Below, one piece after another: positions 9,165 to 29,591 of a stretch of DNA of 64,000 nt. The DNA is from Nesterenkonia sandarakina (lineage in GTDB: Bacteria > Actinomycetota > Actinomycetes > Actinomycetales > Micrococcaceae), in contig NZ_JACCFQ010000001.1 of the NCBI RefSeq assembly GCF_013410215.1, forward strand, positions 1,302,001-1,366,000, written 5' to 3'. Each line of letters opens with the position of its first letter. Within the stretch, counting starts at the first letter, position 1. The translations under genes were made by a program, and so were the position numbers. The notes beneath the pieces are model-generated. The model searched no databases, was not told the DNA's origin, and worked only from the letters and a program-made list of their open reading frames with translations.

Positions 9165-9249
9165 GATGCTTCTCCCTGAGTGGGGGGTGGACCAAGAGCA
9201 CGCAGGAGGGAGGCTCGCGCCGCAGCATGAGCATCCGAGTGAAGATTCT

Positions 9250-9323
9250 CGACTTCCTTCGCAGGTCCTAACCTGATCAGGTGCGAGGGTCTGGGCCTTC
9301 AGCCCACTCTCAGCACCCTGCCG
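9250..9323 (-). promoter_or_regulatory. TPP (THI-box) riboswitch
   Basis: Read on the minus strand, the leader contains AGGGTGCTGAGAGTGGG, a GGGC/GCCC hairpin, ACCCTCGCACCTGATC, then AGGACCTGCGAAGGAAGTC. These match the conserved cores of the THI element: GGGTGC-CTGAGA paired with ACCC, the CCTGATC bulge and the GCGAAGGAA segment. Short P1 arms CGGC/GTCG close the structure. It lies about 85 bases upstream of the ykoE start and is expected to shut the transporter operon down when TPP binds. I see no strong run of T after it, so control may act on translation initiation. Confidence 0.92.
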
Positions 9324-9439
9324 ACGCGGTGCTGGCCTTCCGGCCAGGCATTCCGTCGAGGGGTGCTCCCCTGTCGTGTCTCAAATGACGTGCACTAGAG
9401 TAACACCAGGACACCGACCCACCACCTGAGGAGAACCCC

Positions 9440-21654: not shown

Positions 21655-22424
21655 GCATCACCCTTGACCCCACGACTCCGGAGGCTCAGGGGGTGGGAAC
21701 GAGGCGCTCCAGCTTCGCCCGAGTTCCCGCAGCCTTCAGGCTGCAGTTCACGGTGCCTTCGGCCATGATCGGAGTCCCGCTGGTCGTGTTCTTCGGTGCC
21801 TGGGCCGTGGCCGTCGGCATCGGCCACTGGGTGCGCTACCTGGCAGGCGGCGATCCGGGGCCCGGGTATACCGGGGCTGCACAGGCCACGGTCTGGGCAC
21901 TGGCCTTCATGGCCGCCTACTCGGCCTCGCACACCTTCCCTTTCGCCATGGCGCTGAGCTACAGCAGAAGGGTCTTCGTGCTCGGGGCGTTCCTGGCCTT
22001 CGCGGCGGTGTCTGCCGGTTTCGGTGCACTCTTCTCGATCGCCATCCTCCTTGAACGTGCGACCAATGGGTTCTGGGCCGAGAGCTACAGCTTCGATCTG
22101 CCCTTCATGACTCAGAACGCCGGGGTACCAGGTGCTGGGCTTCTCGCGGGGGCACTGTGTCTGGCGGCCATGATGGTCGGGTTCTTCTGGTCGATCCTGT
22201 ATCGGCGCGTCAGCCTGCTTCTCCTCTGGGTCATCATCCTGGGTCTCGTGGCGCTGTTGGCGGTCGTGGTCATGGTCACGACGCAGAACGAGTGGTGGCC
22301 CCATGTGGGGGACTGGTTGGCGGCGCAGAGCGCGTACTCCTTCGCCGGGTGGGTGTTGTTGCTGGTCCTGGGGGTGACCGCGCTGAACTATGGGGTGATC
22401 CGGCGAGCGGTGCCCACCGTCTGA
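21651..22424 (+). CDS. ABC transporter permease
   Basis: The 257-residue protein has about six hydrophobic segments (~35-60, 80-100, 110-135, 160-185, 190-215, 230-250) and no recognisable soluble domain. Its ATGA overlap with the ATPase gene shows that it is the membrane partner. The operon (regulator, ATPase, permease) resembles minimal YtrA-type exporters. The substrate is unknown. Confidence 0.8.
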   Translation: MSITLDPTTPEAQGVGTRRSSFARVPAAFRLQFTVPSAMIGVPLVVFFGAWAVAVGIGHWVRYLAGGDPGPGYTGAAQATVWALAFMAAYSASHTFPFAMALSYSRRVFVLGAFLAFAAVSAGFGALFSIAILLERATNGFWAESYSFDLPFMTQNAGVPGAGLLAGALCLAAMMVGFFWSILYRRVSLLLLWVIILGLVALLAVVVMVTTQNEWWPHVGDWLAAQSAYSFAGWVLLLVLGVTALNYGVIRRAVPTV

Positions 22425-22452: not shown

Positions 22453-22542
22453 AGAAAGAAGGAAGCCCCAGATCGGCCAGCGTGAGGGGGACGCTTCATG
22501 GGCCGATCCGGGGCTTCCGAATCACTCGCACCTTGATGAGGT
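22453..22542 (-). ncRNA. Structured small RNA element, copy A
   Basis: Read on the minus strand: -10-like TAGATT (22555-22550), a 7-base spacer, then a short hairpin ACCT-CATCA-AGGT. The segment GTGCGAGTGATT follows, then a long stem (arms 22501-22518 and 22461-22478, 17 of 18 positions Watson-Crick plus one G.U on this strand). It carries an inner AGCG/CGCT stem with loop TCCCCCTCA. The descending arm is followed by TTCTTTC, as at a terminator. Two more copies lie at 22625-22711 and 23668-23757. There is no open reading frame. Transcript limits are inferred. Confidence 0.72.
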
Positions 22543-22624
22543 AGTCACTAATCTAAGGGGATTCCATGAACGGACACTTGCCGTTGGCTGGTGATCTACT
22601 GGGAATCCAGAACCTCGCGCTGGG

Positions 22625-22711
22625 CATGAGAAGAGCCCCGAGTCAGCCTGCGTGAGGGGACGCATCTATTGGCTGGCTCGGGGCTCTTAATCACTCGCAC
22701 CTTGATGAGGT
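22625..22711 (-). ncRNA. Structured small RNA element, copy B
   Basis: It has the same plan as copy A: TAGAGT (22724-22719), 7 bases, ACCT-CATCA-AGGT, GTGCGAGTGATT, and a long stem (arms 22671-22688 and 22631-22648) with inner TGCG/CGCA and loop TCCCCTCA. The long-stem sequence differs from copy A at many positions but remains paired, except for one A.C on this strand (G.U on the plus strand). The tail after the stem is not T-rich. It lies about 100 bases downstream of the Rieske gene, on the same strand. Confidence 0.7.
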
Positions 22712-22811
22712 AATTAATACTCTAGGTGCCATTCTTGACGATTTCCCGTGCAGTTCCTGGGAGATCCCTGGGACTCTCTGTAGTCCAGGTCTTCGCCCAG
22801 CTGCGGGCGGT

Positions 22812-23171
22812 CTACTGATCCGGTCGCGGGGTGCCGGGGTGCAGCATCAGATGATCCCCGGAGATGGTGATCTGGTGCGTCCTCACCGGACGCAGCGCGG
22901 GGAGGGTCTCCGGGACGCCCGTACGCAGGCAGAACGCGGAGGCATGCATGGGGCATTCCAGGGTGTCCTCTTCGACGTATCCGTCGGAGAGTGACACTGC
23001 CTCATGGGAGCAGGTGTCGTCCAAGGCGTAGAAGCCGCCGTCTTCGGCGTGGACCACAGCGATGTCGTCGCTCCACCCAGTGTCCTGGGCGGAGACCCGG
23101 AAGACCTCACCCTCCGGGAACTTATCGGCCGGACCGAGGTCGAGCGGCGGGAGTGCATCGGTGGTGGACAT
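22812..23171 (-). CDS. Rieske [2Fe-2S] protein, non-haem oxygenase ferredoxin type
   Basis: The 119-residue protein carries the Rieske cluster motif: Cys-Ser-His in DDTCSHEAV and Cys-Pro-Met-His in ECPMHASAF, 16 residues between the two pairs. It is a small soluble electron carrier of the NirD/BphF/NdoA type. ATG 23171 is preferred because AGAGAGG lies 9 bases upstream; an upstream GTG at 23228 overlaps the S4 gene stop (GTGA) and would add 19 residues. No oxygenase partner is nearby. Confidence 0.88.
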   Translation of the reverse strand: MSTTDALPPLDLGPADKFPEGEVFRVSAQDTGWSDDIAVVHAEDGGFYALDDTCSHEAVSLSDGYVEEDTLECPMHASAFCLRTGVPETLPALRPVRTHQITISGDHLMLHPGTPRPDQ

Positions 23172-23224
23172 CGGTACTGCCTCTCTGCGAAGAACTGTGT
23201 GCGCCTGCATTCTTTCAGACACGG

Positions 23225-23623
23225 TCACTCCGGGAGCTTGCCGCGCAGCTCCTCGAGCTTTCTGCGCTCCCGTTTGGTGGGACGCCCCGATCCACGCGCG
23301 CGCACCGGCAGTCCGACGTCGCGGGGCCGGACCCGTTCTGGCGAGTGGTCCCGATAGGCCTCCCTGGCAACAGGGGGTCCCACTCGTTTGGAGAGCGTGT
23401 GGACCACGTCCAGGATCAGCTCATGCCCGGGGCGACGGATATGAATCCGGGTTCCCGGCGCGATGCGCAGAGATGCCTTCGCCGGATTGCCGTCGATGGT
23501 GATGTGGCCGGCGCGGCAGGCCGCTGTCGCAGCGGAGCGGGTCTTGAAGAGCCGGACGGACCAGAGCCATGCATCGATGCGGACCGGACCGGTGGGGCCG
23601 GGGGTGGCGGCGGTCTCTGTCAT
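23225..23623 (-). CDS. S4-domain RNA-binding protein (Hsp15-like)
   Basis: The 132-residue protein opens with an S4 RNA-binding domain: RIDAWLWSVRLFKTRSAA at ~15-32, then CRAGHITIDGNPAKAS. A basic C-terminal tail (RPTKRERRKLEEL) follows. The layout and length match Hsp15/HslR, which binds stalled 50S subunits carrying nascent chains. Its stop abuts the Rieske gene, so the two may be one transcription unit. RNA element copy C ends about 45 bases upstream of its start. Confidence 0.87.
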   Translation of the reverse strand: MTETAATPGPTGPVRIDAWLWSVRLFKTRSAATAACRAGHITIDGNPAKASLRIAPGTRIHIRRPGHELILDVVHTLSKRVGPPVAREAYRDHSPERVRPRDVGLPVRARGSGRPTKRERRKLEELRGKLPE

Positions 23624-23667
23624 GGGCTTAGTCTAGAGATTCATCTCCTGCGCTGCCCGGGGGCAGC

Positions 23668-23757
23668 TGGCGAACACACAGACCCCGCGTCCGGAAGTGT
23701 GAGGGGACACTGTTCCGAAACGCGGGGTCTGCTGAATCACTCGCACCTTCAAGAGGC
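23668..23757 (-). ncRNA. Structured small RNA element, copy C
   Basis: Minus strand: TAGGTT (23770-23765), 7 bases, CCT-CTTGA-AGG hairpin, GTGCGAGTGATT, and a long stem (arms 23713-23731 and 23679-23696, one bulge) with inner AGTG/CACT and loop TCCCCTCA. The stem arms are different in sequence from copies A and B but pair equally well. It lies between a lipoprotein gene and the S4-domain gene on the same strand, so for this copy a cis role is possible as well. Confidence 0.7.
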
Positions 23758-23843
23758 ACTCTCCAACCTAGGAGGCCTTCTTGGGTGTCCGGTGTTTGTG
23801 GGCTGGGAACTCTCTGAGGACAGGGAGTCGCGACGCCCGGAGG

Positions 23844-25109: not shown

Positions 25110-28100
25110 GTGCCGAAGAAACTCTCGTCTGCCGTCGTCGGCACTCTGGCCGTTGGCCTGACCATGCCGCTGACCGCGAATGCCGCCGCTGCGGACACCG
25201 CGCCGCTGAACGCGATGCCGCTGCCCGCGACCGGGGTGGATGCCCCCGCGATGAACGCCTCCGGGCTGAGCACCGTCGACATCTCCGCCACCCGAAATGC
25301 CACCCAGTTCAGGTTCCCGCTGGCTCAGCGCTCCTACAGCTACACCTCCCCCTACGGTCCACGCTGCATGCCAGCTCCGGGCGCCTCGACATGGCATCTG
25401 GGGCAGGACCTCGGGGCTGCTGATGGCAGTCCGATCTACTCGGTGGCCGAGGGCACCGTGGTGCGGACCTTCAACGGCAACCGGTACAACGCCGGCTACG
25501 TCGTCATAGAGCATCGGGTGGACGGCAAGACCTTCCACAGCGCGTATTACCACATGTGGGATGCGAACTCCCACGTCAGAGTTGGTCAGAGTGTCCAGGC
25601 CGGTCAGACGATCGCTCGGATCGGCAACTCGGGCCCGTCCACCGGCCCCCACCTGCACCTGGAGATCTGGGAAGGCGCCTGGATCAACGGCACCTCGCAT
25701 GATCCGACCACCTGGCTGGCTCAGCGCGGCGTCAACCTGCGCGCCGGAGCTACCACGGTGCTCAACATCTCAACACCGTCCTCCTGCGACTACTACACCT
25801 CGACCTCCACCGCGCTGCGCTCCACGGCGAGCAGCTCCGGGGCGGTCATCACGCAGCTTGGAGCTGGCACAGCGCTGACAGCGGCGCCAGGGGCCATCAG
25901 CAACTCGATGCTGCGGGTGACGGCCAACGGCCGCACCGGCTGGGTGGCGCACTCGGCTGTGACGCCGAACCGCCCCGCAGGCACCGTGCCCGCCTCGAGC
26001 GCCCCGCAGGGCACCTCGATCACCCCCACCAAGTACCGGACCACCGCCTCGCTGAACGCCCGCAGCGGACCCGGAACCAACTACGCCGTCCAGCAGGGCC
26101 TGGCGTCAGGGACCGAGGTCACTGTCATCGCCACCCACGGCAGCTGGCTGAAGTTCAGCCGCAACGGCCAGACAGTCTGGTCCCACAGCGACTTCATGAC
26201 GAAGGTGGCGACAACCCCGACGACGCCGACCACGGCGGCCAGCGGCACCTATAAGGTCCAGGCCGGTGTGAGTCTGCGGGCGCGCAGCGGCCCAGGCACC
26301 TCGAACTCGATCGTGAAGGTTCTCGACCCCGGCACCACCGTGAGCGTGACCGGGAAGAACGGTGACTGGTTCAGCTACCGCGATGGATCTCGGACGCTGT
26401 GGCTGCAGGGCAGCTTCCTGGAACAGGTGATGACGACTCCGACGACGCCGACCACGGCGGCCAGCGGCACCTATAAGGTCCAGGCCGGGGTGAGTCTGCG
26501 GGCGCGCAGCGGTCCAGGCACCTCGAACTCGATCGTGAAGGTGCTCGACCCGGGCACCACGGTGAGCGTGACCGGGAGGAACGGTGAGTGGTTCAGCTAC
26601 CGCGACGGATCTCGGACCCTGTGGCTGCAGGCCACCTGGTTGGACCAGGTCACCACCCCGACGACGGCGGCCAGCGGCACCTATCAGGTCCAGTCCGGGG
26701 TGAGCCTGCGGGCGCGCAGCGGCCCAGGGACCTCCAATTCTATTGTGAAGGTGCTCAACCCGGGCACCACGGTGAGCGTGACCGGGAGGAACGGTGAGTG
26801 GTTCAGCTACCGCGACGGATCCCGGACCCTGTGGCTGCAGGCCACCTGGTTGGACCAGGTCAGCGCGTCGTCGGGCAGCTCGTCGAACACCGGGTCGACC
26901 ACGGCGGCCAGCGGCACCTATAAGGTCCAGTCCGGGGTGAGTCTGCGGGCGCGCAGCGGTCCAGGCACCTCGAACTCGATCGTGAAGGTGCTCAACCCGG
27001 GCACCACGGTGAGTGTGACCGGGAGGAACGGTGAGTGGTTCAGCTACCGCGACGGATCCCGGACGCTGTGGCTGCAGGCCACCTGGTTGGACCAGGTCAC
27101 CACCCCGACGACGGCGGCCAGCGGCACCTATCAGGTCCAGTCCGGGGTGAGTCTGCGGGCGCGCAGCGGCCCAGGGACCTCCAATTCGATCGTGAAGGTG
27201 CTCAACCCGGGCACCACGGTGAGTGTGACCGGGAGGAACGGTGAGTGGTTCAGCTACCGCGACGGATCCCGGACCCTGTGGCTGCAGGCCACCTGGCTGG
27301 ACCGGGTCACCACCTCGACCGGTGCCGGTTCGGGCACCGAGACGATCCCCGGTGGCCCAGAGTCCTCCAGCTCCACGCCCACCACGAGCAGCGGCCAGTA
27401 CACCGTGAAGAGTGGAGTGAACCTCAACGCGCGCACGGGAGCGAGCACCTCAAGCTCCAGCGCCAAGGTGCTTGCACCCGGCACAAGGATCTCCATCACC
27501 GGTGAGCAGAACGAATGGGTCAGCTTCAAGGACGGGTCACGGACCCTCTGGGTGCATTCTGGATACCTGGACCAGGCATCGGCTAACCAGGACGCCGAGC
27601 GCACCAGCGCCGCCAGCGGCGCATACCGGGTCAAGAACGGCGTGAGCCTGCGCGCACGCAGCGGCGCCAGCACCTCGAGCTCGATCGTGAAGGTTCTGAA
27701 TCCGGGCACCACCGTGGAGATCACGGGAAAGAACGGAGCGTGGTTCAGCTACAAGGACGGCTCACAGACGCTGTGGGTGCAGGCAAGCTTCCTTGATCAG
27801 GTCACAGGTTCCACCGGCAACGGCTCCTCCTCCAACACGGGCTCAAACGCGGGCTCGAACACCGGGTCCTCCTCGACCAGCGCGGCCAGTGGCACGTTCC
27901 AGGTCAAGTCCGGTGTGAACCTCAACGCTCGGACCGGCGCATCGGCGACCAGCTCCAGCGCGAAGGTGCTGGCCCCGGGGACGAAGATCTCCATCACTGG
28001 CAAGCAGGGCGACTGGGTCAGCTATAAGGATGGCTCCCGGACGCTGTGGGTGCACTCGGGCTACCTGACCCAGGCGTCGGGATCCAGCTCGAACGGTTCC

Positions 28101-29591
28101 GGCAGCGGCTCCTCCTCGAACACGGGCTCGAACACCGGGTCCTCCTCGACCAGCGCGGCCAGTGGCACGTTCCAGGTCAAGTCCGGTGTGAACCTCAACG
28201 CTCGGACCGGCGCCTCGGCGACCAGCTCCAGCGTGAAGGTGCTGGCCCCGGGCACGAGGATCTCCATCACCGGCAAGCAGGGCGACTGGGTCAGCTATAA
28301 GGATGGCTCCCGGACGCTGTGGGTGCACTCGGACTATCTGACCCAGGCGTCGGGATCCAGCTCGAACGGTTCCGGCAACGGCTCCTCCAACACGGGGTCG
28401 AACTCCGGGTCCTCCTCGAACACGGGGTCGAACTCAGGGTCCTCTTCAGGGTCCACGGGTTCGACCACCTCGGCGAGCGGGAAGTACCACGTCAAGAACA
28501 ACGTCTACCTGAACGCGCGCAGCGGCCCCGCCACCTCGCACCCGATCGTGTTGAACCTCAACCCCAAGCGGGAGTTCGAGATCACCGGTCGCAGCGGCAA
28601 CTGGGTGAGCTTCGTGTTCAGCGGCAAGACCGTCTGGGTGGACTCCACCTACATCAACTCCGGTCCCGCCAGCAGCTCCGGGTCCAGCAGCTCCGGGTCC
28701 AGCAGCTCCGGGTCCAGCAACAGCGGATCCAGCAGCTCCACCCCCACCCTGGCCAACTCGACGAACAGCAAAAGCAAGGTCGTCGGAACCGCCTACGCCA
28801 CGGCCCAGGTCAACGTCCGGATGGGCCCGAGCACACAGAACAGCGCGATGTTCTCCGTGCGCACCGGCACCAAGGTCGAGCTGCTTGAGAAGAAGTCCAA
28901 CGGCTGGCAGGAGATCAAGGTCAACGGCGCCACCGGCTGGATGTCGGCGCAGTACCTCTCCACCTCCGCCCCGGCGACCTCCGGCTCGAACAACTCCGGT
29001 TCGAATTCCGGGTCCTCCGGCAGCGGCTCCTCCACCGCTCCGTCGACCGCGAGCATGCACAAGAAGAGCGCCAACGGACCGTACAGCTCGGCCTGGGACA
29101 AGCTGGCCCAGTGCGAATCCGGTGGGAACTGGAAGATCAACACCGGCAACGGCTTCTACGGCGGCATCCAGTTCAGCCCCGAGTCCTGGAAAGAGGTGGG
29201 CGGCTCCGGCTTCCCGCACCAGGCGAGCAAGGAGGAGCAGATCAAACGGGCCTACATGCTCTGGAAGAAGCAGGGCTGGAAGGCCTGGCCCCACTGCACC
29301 TCCCAGCTGGGCCTCAAGGGCGACCCCGGTGGCTACGGGGACGACTACTACAAGGTCCACCCCAGCGCGAAGACCGCCTCATCGGTCTCCTCCGCCGGAA
29401 CCTGGACCTCCTCCCACAGTGTGCCGCTGCGCGAGACCGCCGCCACTTCGAGTGACAAGCTCGTCCAGATCCCGCGCGGCGCTCAGCTCGAGCAGCTCCA
29501 GCGCGAAGGATCCTGGCTGAAGGTGCGCTTCACGCAGGGTGGGGACACCCACACCGGCTGGGTCAACACCAGCTACATCCTGCAGGCCTGA
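25110..29591 (+). CDS. Secreted modular peptidoglycan hydrolase: M23 peptidase, SH3 repeats, Rpf-like domain
   Basis: The 1493-residue protein starts with a signal peptide (MPKKLSSAVVG..., cleavage near residue 28). A lysostaphin-type M23 peptidase follows, with zinc ligands in HLGQD (His96, Asp100) and HLHLE (His181/183). About 13 SH3b-type repeats come next (~residues 215-1300), each with R(S/T)Gx(G/S)T and W(F/V)S(Y/F) segments joined by Thr/Pro or Ser/Gly/Asn linkers. Then comes an Rpf/lysozyme-like domain (~1325-1410, catalytic Glu1336 in CESGGNW, paired Cys) and a last SH3-like domain. It should bind the wall through the SH3 repeats and cut both peptide and glycan. Fragments of the family are common, but this combination and repeat number are unusual. 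GTG start with a GTGAGGAAG site. Confidence 0.9.
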   Translation: MPKKLSSAVVGTLAVGLTMPLTANAAAADTAPLNAMPLPATGVDAPAMNASGLSTVDISATRNATQFRFPLAQRSYSYTSPYGPRCMPAPGASTWHLGQDLGAADGSPIYSVAEGTVVRTFNGNRYNAGYVVIEHRVDGKTFHSAYYHMWDANSHVRVGQSVQAGQTIARIGNSGPSTGPHLHLEIWEGAWINGTSHDPTTWLAQRGVNLRAGATTVLNISTPSSCDYYTSTSTALRSTASSSGAVITQLGAGTALTAAPGAISNSMLRVTANGRTGWVAHSAVTPNRPAGTVPASSAPQGTSITPTKYRTTASLNARSGPGTNYAVQQGLASGTEVTVIATHGSWLKFSRNGQTVWSHSDFMTKVATTPTTPTTAASGTYKVQAGVSLRARSGPGTSNSIVKVLDPGTTVSVTGKNGDWFSYRDGSRTLWLQGSFLEQVMTTPTTPTTAASGTYKVQAGVSLRARSGPGTSNSIVKVLDPGTTVSVTGRNGEWFSYRDGSRTLWLQATWLDQVTTPTTAASGTYQVQSGVSLRARSGPGTSNSIVKVLNPGTTVSVTGRNGEWFSYRDGSRTLWLQATWLDQVSASSGSSSNTGSTTAASGTYKVQSGVSLRARSGPGTSNSIVKVLNPGTTVSVTGRNGEWFSYRDGSRTLWLQATWLDQVTTPTTAASGTYQVQSGVSLRARSGPGTSNSIVKVLNPGTTVSVTGRNGEWFSYRDGSRTLWLQATWLDRVTTSTGAGSGTETIPGGPESSSSTPTTSSGQYTVKSGVNLNARTGASTSSSSAKVLAPGTRISITGEQNEWVSFKDGSRTLWVHSGYLDQASANQDAERTSAASGAYRVKNGVSLRARSGASTSSSIVKVLNPGTTVEITGKNGAWFSYKDGSQTLWVQASFLDQVTGSTGNGSSSNTGSNAGSNTGSSSTSAASGTFQVKSGVNLNARTGASATSSSAKVLAPGTKISITGKQGDWVSYKDGSRTLWVHSGYLTQASGSSSNGSGSGSSSNTGSNTGSSSTSAASGTFQVKSGVNLNARTGASATSSSVKVLAPGTRISITGKQGDWVSYKDGSRTLWVHSDYLTQASGSSSNGSGNGSSNTGSNSGSSSNTGSNSGSSSGSTGSTTSASGKYHVKNNVYLNARSGPATSHPIVLNLNPKREFEITGRSGNWVSFVFSGKTVWVDSTYINSGPASSSGSSSSGSSSSGSSNSGSSSSTPTLANSTNSKSKVVGTAYATAQVNVRMGPSTQNSAMFSVRTGTKVELLEKKSNGWQEIKVNGATGWMSAQYLSTSAPATSGSNNSGSNSGSSGSGSSTAPSTASMHKKSANGPYSSAWDKLAQCESGGNWKINTGNGFYGGIQFSPESWKEVGGSGFPHQASKEEQIKRAYMLWKKQGWKAWPHCTSQLGLKGDPGGYGDDYYKVHPSAKTASSVSSAGTWTSSHSVPLRETAATSSDKLVQIPRGAQLEQLQREGSWLKVRFTQGGDTHTGWVNTSYILQA
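26461..27354 (+). repeat. Near-identical 447-bp tandem duplication inside the hydrolase gene
   Basis: The segment 26461-26907 is repeated at 26908-27354 with very few base changes until near the end of the second copy. Each unit carries two SH3b repeats. A further related repeat begins at about 26233. Another pair of near-identical repeats, offset 273 bases, lies at about 27870-28360. The offsets are multiples of three, so copy-number changes keep the frame. Confidence 0.88.

Follow-up and report, generated by a model that had tools for sequence, protein, structure and literature searches.

Introduction

To our knowledge, networks of base-pairing small RNAs (sRNAs) are little known in actinobacteria. 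The 6C RNA (RF01066), defined by two hairpins with C-rich loops, is one actinobacterial point of comparison, and the Hfq-dependent GcvB of enterobacteria is another from further afield. GcvB is a single sRNA that acts on many nutrient-uptake mRNAs (PMC11878033). The LhrC1-5 RNAs of Listeria monocytogenes form a multicopy system in which the promoters need the two-component system LisRK via an element at about -53 to -59 and UCCC motifs in the loops bind target mRNA (PMC4132741).

Here we analyze three minus-strand elements (A, B, and C) in a 64,000-nucleotide stretch of the Nesterenkonia sandarakina genome (the window, i.e., the whole stretch of DNA that was analyzed), which a first-pass annotation had proposed to be a family of trans-acting sRNAs. 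Like 6C RNA they are actinobacterial and carry C-rich hairpin loops, but the two have no 5′ module in common and are separate genes. With LhrC1-5 they share a multicopy arrangement, UCCC motifs and, putatively, two-component control, whereas LhrC1-5 belong to a low-GC host and pair via redundant CU-rich sites rather than a constant 5′ seed. The likeness to GcvB lies in the many mRNAs for nutrient uptake (predicted targets in the case of the Micrococcaceae sRNAs); sequence and host differ, as does GcvB's amino-acid focus from the mixed uptake and secretion functions here. We think it rather likely that A, B, and C are multicopy trans-acting sRNAs, probably controlled by a response regulator, that repress mRNAs for uptake and secreted proteins. 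No description of this family was found among open-access titles and abstract openings, and one may exist elsewhere, e.g., in subscription journals.

Three Related Elements in the Window

The positions, strand, and anatomy first proposed for the three elements were all borne out, and their features are as follows (window coordinates).

22453..22542, minus strand: sRNA copy A, ~90 nt (sequence, fold, covariance model R1 98.3 bits)
22625..22711, minus strand: sRNA copy B, ~87 nt (sequence, fold, covariance model R1 80.2 bits)
23668..23757, minus strand: sRNA copy C, ~90 nt (sequence, fold, covariance model R1 74.1 bits)
22520..22534, minus strand: constant module of A, AAGGTGCGAGTGATT, its GUGCGAGUGAU part being the proposed seed (exact match, family-wide conservation)
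22689..22703, minus strand: constant module of B, AAGGTGCGAGTGATT (exact match)
23735..23749, minus strand: constant module of C, AAGGTGCGAGTGATT (exact match)
22461..22518, minus strand: long hairpin of A, terminator-like, inner stem-loop GCGU-CCCCCUC-ACGC (sequence, fold)
22631..22688, minus strand: long hairpin of B, terminator-like, inner stem-loop C-rich (sequence, fold)
23679..23731, minus strand: long hairpin of C, terminator-like, inner stem-loop GUGU-CCCCUC-ACAC (sequence, fold)
22550..22555, minus strand: -10-like box of A, TAGATT (sequence)
22719..22724, minus strand: -10-like box of B, TAGAGT (sequence)
23765..23770, minus strand: -10-like box of C, TAGGTT (sequence)
22567..22601, minus strand: directly repeated CAG of A, putative site for an activator (pattern CAG-N8-CAG-N19-CA; periodicity)
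22736..22770, minus strand: directly repeated CAG of B, putative site for an activator (same pattern; periodicity)
23782..23816, minus strand: directly repeated CAG of C, putative site for an activator (same pattern; periodicity)

In each copy, a -10-like box of the annotated TAGNNT type is followed by seven variable bases, the module, and a GC-rich hairpin. The module reads (A/G)CCTC-N4-AAGGTGCGAGTGATT, within which GCGAGUGAUU is the invariant single-stranded stretch common to A, B, and C; AAGGTGCGAGTGATT is exact on the minus strand of all three. The 15-mer AAGGTGCGAGTGATT occurs in the window's genome at three exact places (i.e., A, B, and C), at one with one mismatch and at four with two.

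Copies A and B had both been said to run towards the end of a convergent gene. This is true of A, which adjoins a convergent ORF end at 22424; B instead sits in tandem on the upstream side of A and runs towards it. Downstream of copy C is a small minus-strand gene (23225-23623, ORF start at 23623), apparently with a -10 of its own, a TAGACT read about 7 nt before the ATG. Judged from sequence, the neighboring genes appear to encode a permease of an ABC transporter, a protein of the Rieske type, and one with an S4 domain. Elsewhere in the window, a plus-strand ORF of 1493 aa (25110-29591) appears by eye to contain many near-identical SH3-like repeats and, near its C-terminal third, an Rpf-like domain.

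Structure and Covariation

The folds of A, B, and C are more stable than those of dinucleotide shuffles (z -7.4, -5.5, and -4.7), with 0/200 shuffles as good in each case. The 5′ mini-hairpin assigned to all three copies is present in the anatomy, and the centroid fold of C has it; in the minimum-free-energy folds it forms in A only, the modules of B and C being paired otherwise. Over the family, its stem is kept with a loop of 3, 4, or 5 nt depending on genus, and the constant module is nearly invariant over 30 genera.

That the long arms differ and still pair, as the first-pass annotation had it, was observed across 65 Nesterenkonia-type matches (59 of them distinct; Nesterenkonia loci supplied 63 and other genera two). 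Specifically, in a model-fitted alignment of these matches—an alignment that leans towards structure—96.6% of the hairpin cells are paired, 19 of 25 pairs have changes on both sides, and the covariation score is 0.577 vs. 0.175 in shuffles (0/500 reaching 0.577), with slid controls at or below 0.103. A MAFFT alignment of 50 Nesterenkonia copies scored 0.261 vs. 0.142 in shuffles (0/500 reaching 0.261); sliding the partners by one column still gave 0.244, in our reading because this alignment is one column out for some rows. The inner 4-bp stem GCGU/ACGC, on which the loop with its C run sits as described, itself varies with compensation, e.g., one pair is CG in 46 cases and UA in 13. With covarying homologues in hand and no Rfam match at threshold for A, B, or C in a scan of the window, the proposal of a structure-conserved sRNA family, apparently a hitherto undescribed one, survives two of the three refuting conditions that came with it.

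The window's only Rfam match at threshold is a TPP riboswitch (9237-9382, minus strand, 57.7 bits). F6 TB sRNA (RF01791) was considered and rejected, as its matches (26.2 bits for B on the plus strand, 21.8 bits for A on the minus strand) are below the gathering score of 46, involve the GC-rich hairpin only, and are better on the opposite strand; we put these and the sub-threshold RsmY and miRNA-like matches down to chance or stem composition.

The C-rich loop had been taken for the working part of the RNA, a view that comparison does not favor. When the 3′ half was read in 107 distinct copies outside Nesterenkonia, at least four C were present in the hairpin loop of 68 copies (69 on a longer stretch), against 37/300 base-shuffled controls made from 60 of these copies; the C-rich loop is therefore common, not defining. 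The copies without a four-C loop comprise six with CCUCC (located in the hairpin loop in L086, L247, and L259), 11 with only CCC in the loop, and 22 plain ones. In members of the Arthrobacter type, a further short hairpin and a loop resembling UUUCCCCCAAC are frequent. Complementarity of the loop to ribosome-binding sites is retained as a possible second contact and not as the main pairing part. The element is better read from its 5′ single strand, which is nearly constant and whose complement is enriched at translation starts, with the loop as a second, optional Shine-Dalgarno contact.

Distribution of the Family

R2, a covariance model built on 39 nt at the 5′ end and applied at a threshold of E 0.001, matched 327 of 395 sampled Micrococcaceae genomes from 30 of 32 genera, with 1-9 matches each, the weakest lying near the threshold; the remaining 68/395 had no match at that E value. 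Sampling the order (8/149 genomes matching) and the class (3/296) gave matches in Micrococcaceae exclusively. Genomes hold several paralogous copies (three matches in G000), and the 15-mer with at most one mismatch was found in 33/58 relatives, the reversed pattern in 2/58. Among the exact matches listed, promoter and module are both present in Nesterenkonia, Rothia, Kocuria, Arthrobacter, and Glutamicibacter records, and many other 15-mer rows look like chance matches in coding DNA.

Viral contigs held no exact match (0) to the 21-nt core pattern, and phage copies were rejected. BLAST matches on two Citricoccus plasmids, though weak (E 0.5), proved when read to be copies whose loop is of the CCCCUC type. 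Tandem doubling of the seed AGGTGCGAGTGATG occurs in one of these plasmid copies (L298, on NZ_CP133844.1) and in three copies of G084 (L360, L389, and L390). Separately, a record titled Curtobacterium sp. S6 contains a copy (L093) much like that of Rothia koreensis (L084), and the title may be a misnomer.

Over 31 loci from different genera, the commonest neighbor families are ProC (15), TrkA (13), topoisomerase I (12), TrkH (10), and Ppx/GppA (10), from which we infer an ancestral site near proC-ppx and later spread. The window copies are located elsewhere than this neighborhood; recurring spacings of ~170 nt and 1 kb in other Nesterenkonia suggest the same place as that of the window copies.

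CAG Repeats in the Promoters

Upstream of the -10 box we observed CAG triplets at 11-bp steps. Counted from the first -10 base in 85 promoters—a set that includes two chance matches (L111 and L142) and several sites read in two registers—CAG stands at -46 in 54 and at -35 in 59, and more weakly at -24 (10/85) and -13 (14/85, with CA in 60/85). In the same set, CAG-CAG lags of 11, 22, and 33 bp occur 73, 22, and 13 times (next best lag 6; shuffled means 1.2, 0.9, and 0.7), and the 107 copies outside Nesterenkonia repeat the pattern (64, 38, and 19 times; next best 7). The Rothia copies have no clear CAG repeats by eye.

Direct repeats of 11 bases near -35 are typical of OmpR/PhoB-type response regulators, and the sRNA promoters are probably under the control of such a regulator, for which MtrA is a candidate. 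The MtrA motif of Mycobacterium tuberculosis is given as directly repeated 9-nt units set 2 nt apart (PMC6265350), and GTCACAgcg is quoted for the same protein (PMC2945938). The CAG repeats have the same 11-bp period and overlap this motif at TCACAG, but MtrA sites are direct repeats of the GTnAC type whereas the conserved core here is CAG. The MprA motif of Corynebacterium glutamicum, given as TKTTAAGAAM (PMC12113857), was rejected as it bears no resemblance to the repeats.

A weight-matrix scan of the window gave the three sRNA promoters as best matches, followed by weaker ones overlapping shuffled scores, and a sigma-70 scan found no promoter. Beyond the sRNAs, no gene could be tied to the motif and there was no convincing excess over the reversed pattern in five and 23 genomes: the two-repeat pattern matched 11 times in five genomes (two at sRNA promoters) vs. 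six for its reverse, and the four-repeat pattern three times in 23 genomes (two at sRNA promoters) vs. seven, six of them in one genome. At one permease-amidase neighborhood shared by two Nesterenkonia genomes (L204 and L208) there is a CAG-repeat-like site without an sRNA.

Seed Complements at Translation Starts

Complements of the seed are over-represented at translation starts. With start windows that were fixed after the first sites had been seen and that differ between the two sets, and with a crude gene caller of our own, ATCACTCGC sites in three Nesterenkonia genomes (G000, G022, and G013) fall in the sense start window (-60..+25) in 9/60 cases and in the antisense one once, against 104/3000 (3.5%) and 122 for composition-matched k-mers (p 2e-4). 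The starting set had 73 sites, nine of which are the sRNA copies themselves; of the 64 left, these 60 were examined. For ATCACTCGCA in ten other genera the counts are 9/42 sense (window -70..+25; 8/42 with -60) and two antisense, against 161/3000 (5.4%) and 146 (p 3e-4). Here 68 of 76 sites were examined, the rest being known sRNA copies, duplicates, or off-centre sites; removing 23 sRNA copies left 45, and removing the three in the doubled G084 modules left 42. Both backgrounds were drawn from other DNA of Micrococcaceae. The Nesterenkonia count takes L318, L319, and L325, which are near-identical, as three sites and omits L328, which the gene caller missed; a 9-mer search near starts cannot tell which targets are real. 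The three near-identical stretches, all in G022, probably belong to a mobile element.

A hydrophobic stretch lies within the first 80 residues of 15/18 start-site genes vs. 66/233 nearby genes found by the same caller (p 5e-6). These 15 are predicted to begin with a signal or membrane segment, and many of the genes appear to encode solute-binding proteins and permeases. Seventeen genes (16 of the 18 counted plus L328; L422 was left out) were submitted to Pfam. Matches above cut-off were of the solute-binding type in four (SBP_bac_1 in L307, NMT1 in L338 and L345, ABC_sub_bind in L401) and otherwise to an ammonium transporter (L333), DUF4212 (L310), an SDF symporter (L410), GcvH (L356), an amidase (L357), and a short-chain dehydrogenase (L391). 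SBP_bac_1 in L308 and CstA in L373 fell just below cut-off, L312 and L328 had no match above it, and L364, L395, L413, and L423 gave no match from 80-residue stretches.

The most extensive pairing is with the leader of a solute-binding-protein gene in the window's own genome (L307; start region at G000:C1:1111683). Counting wobbles, this leader can form 21 contiguous bp with the module (-36.7 kcal/mol); among 224 other start regions the best value was -25.9, and shuffled modules reached -26.6 kcal/mol. The duplexes at the other eight Nesterenkonia sites (-19.1 to -26.6 kcal/mol) are no better than this background. Only one start-region site was recognized as common to orthologues in G000, G022, and G013, namely the pair L312/L328 from two species, in which the seed complement lies just after the start codon. 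The annotation's view that the RNAs act in trans is upheld as probable.

A Model for the Elements

These patterns are consistent with A, B, and C being three paralogues in a Micrococcaceae-wide family of ~90-nt trans-acting RNAs, each with its own promoter. An activator, probably a response regulator of the OmpR/PhoB type, would bind TTC(A/C)CAG-like direct repeats spaced 11 bp and reaching to just upstream of the -10 box, so that one regulator may switch on several short RNAs together. The RNA would start ~7 nt past the -10 with a small hairpin (ACCU/AGGU), expose the nearly constant single strand GUGCGAGUGAU(U/G) as a seed, and end in the long GC-rich hairpin as terminator. The seed is predicted to pair with 5′ leaders and start regions, mainly of mRNAs that encode permeases, secreted proteins, and the solute-binding lipoproteins of ABC transporters, and the position of the sites in or near the ribosome-binding region suggests that pairing blocks translation. 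In many members a C run or CCUCC in the terminator loop may add a Shine-Dalgarno contact, and the presence of several siblings could raise the dose and let the hairpins diverge.

Alternative Explanations

The module might instead capture a protein, as in CsrA- or RNA-polymerase-binding RNAs, the seed complements being incidental. The near-invariance of the module over so many genera exceeds the needs of a seed alone, and doubled modules would raise binding valency; the enrichment of complements at starts and the 21-bp match are, however, what such an RNA would leave to coincidence, and we consider this explanation unlikely.

Copy C, just upstream of a same-strand gene, and the terminator-like hairpin that ends each copy would also suit a cis-acting leader or attenuator, i.e., a signal-responsive, riboswitch-like element that ends transcription before the downstream gene. 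This is decidedly unlikely: A heads into the end of a convergent gene and B heads into A, a separate -10 seems to serve the gene that follows C, the downstream genes differ between loci and genera, and signal sensing would rest on a single 24-nt module.

It is very improbable that the elements are no RNA genes at all, being a repeated terminator, a DNA operator, or a short coding leader. A GC-rich hairpin near a gene end (for A) and a GTG preceded by AAGG in the module point that way, but the arms have changed in a compensated way beside an unchanged promoter and module, and the ORF length from the GTG is scattered over the 107 copies, from two codons to beyond the 170-nt stretch, so that a leader peptide was rejected. 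The annotators' denial of a simple mobile repeat is likewise supported.

Membership of or descent from the 6C family, to which the annotation had already preferred a separate identity, is scarcely credible: despite C-rich loops, two of them in some Arthrobacter copies (L010 and L229) vs. one each in the folds of A, B, and C, the 6C model at its gathering score has no match in the window, in 17 module loci or in 30 Nesterenkonia genomes, L010 included among the non-matching copies, while the module is absent from 16 loci with 6C-model matches, four genomes (G061, G090, G113, and G153) have both families, and no intermediate matching both models in one transcript was seen. Four 6C-like RNAs of genus g6 (L159, L235, L237, and L239), from Micrococcaceae genomes without the sRNA module, are a separate observation: each seems to carry a series of three or more hairpins with C-rich loops (four in the case of L159).

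Implications

Returning to the trans-acting sRNAs, a broader generalization, to which we give slightly less than even odds, is a post-transcriptional regulon spanning the family: that one two-component system drives sibling sRNAs with a ~12-nt common seed and freely exchanged 3′ hairpins, and that sites for this seed arise at the starts of genes for solute-binding proteins, permeases, and secreted proteins. What is new here are the CAG direct repeats at 11-bp spacing in the promoters and the over-representation of seed complements at translation starts. The elements would constitute a new family of RNAs present across most of one bacterial family. Its seed is fixed, its promoters bear a signature, hundreds of genomes are open to comparison, and the list of predicted targets is short, so that the model is directly testable in harmless bacteria of soil and salt lakes, e.g., Arthrobacter or Nesterenkonia.
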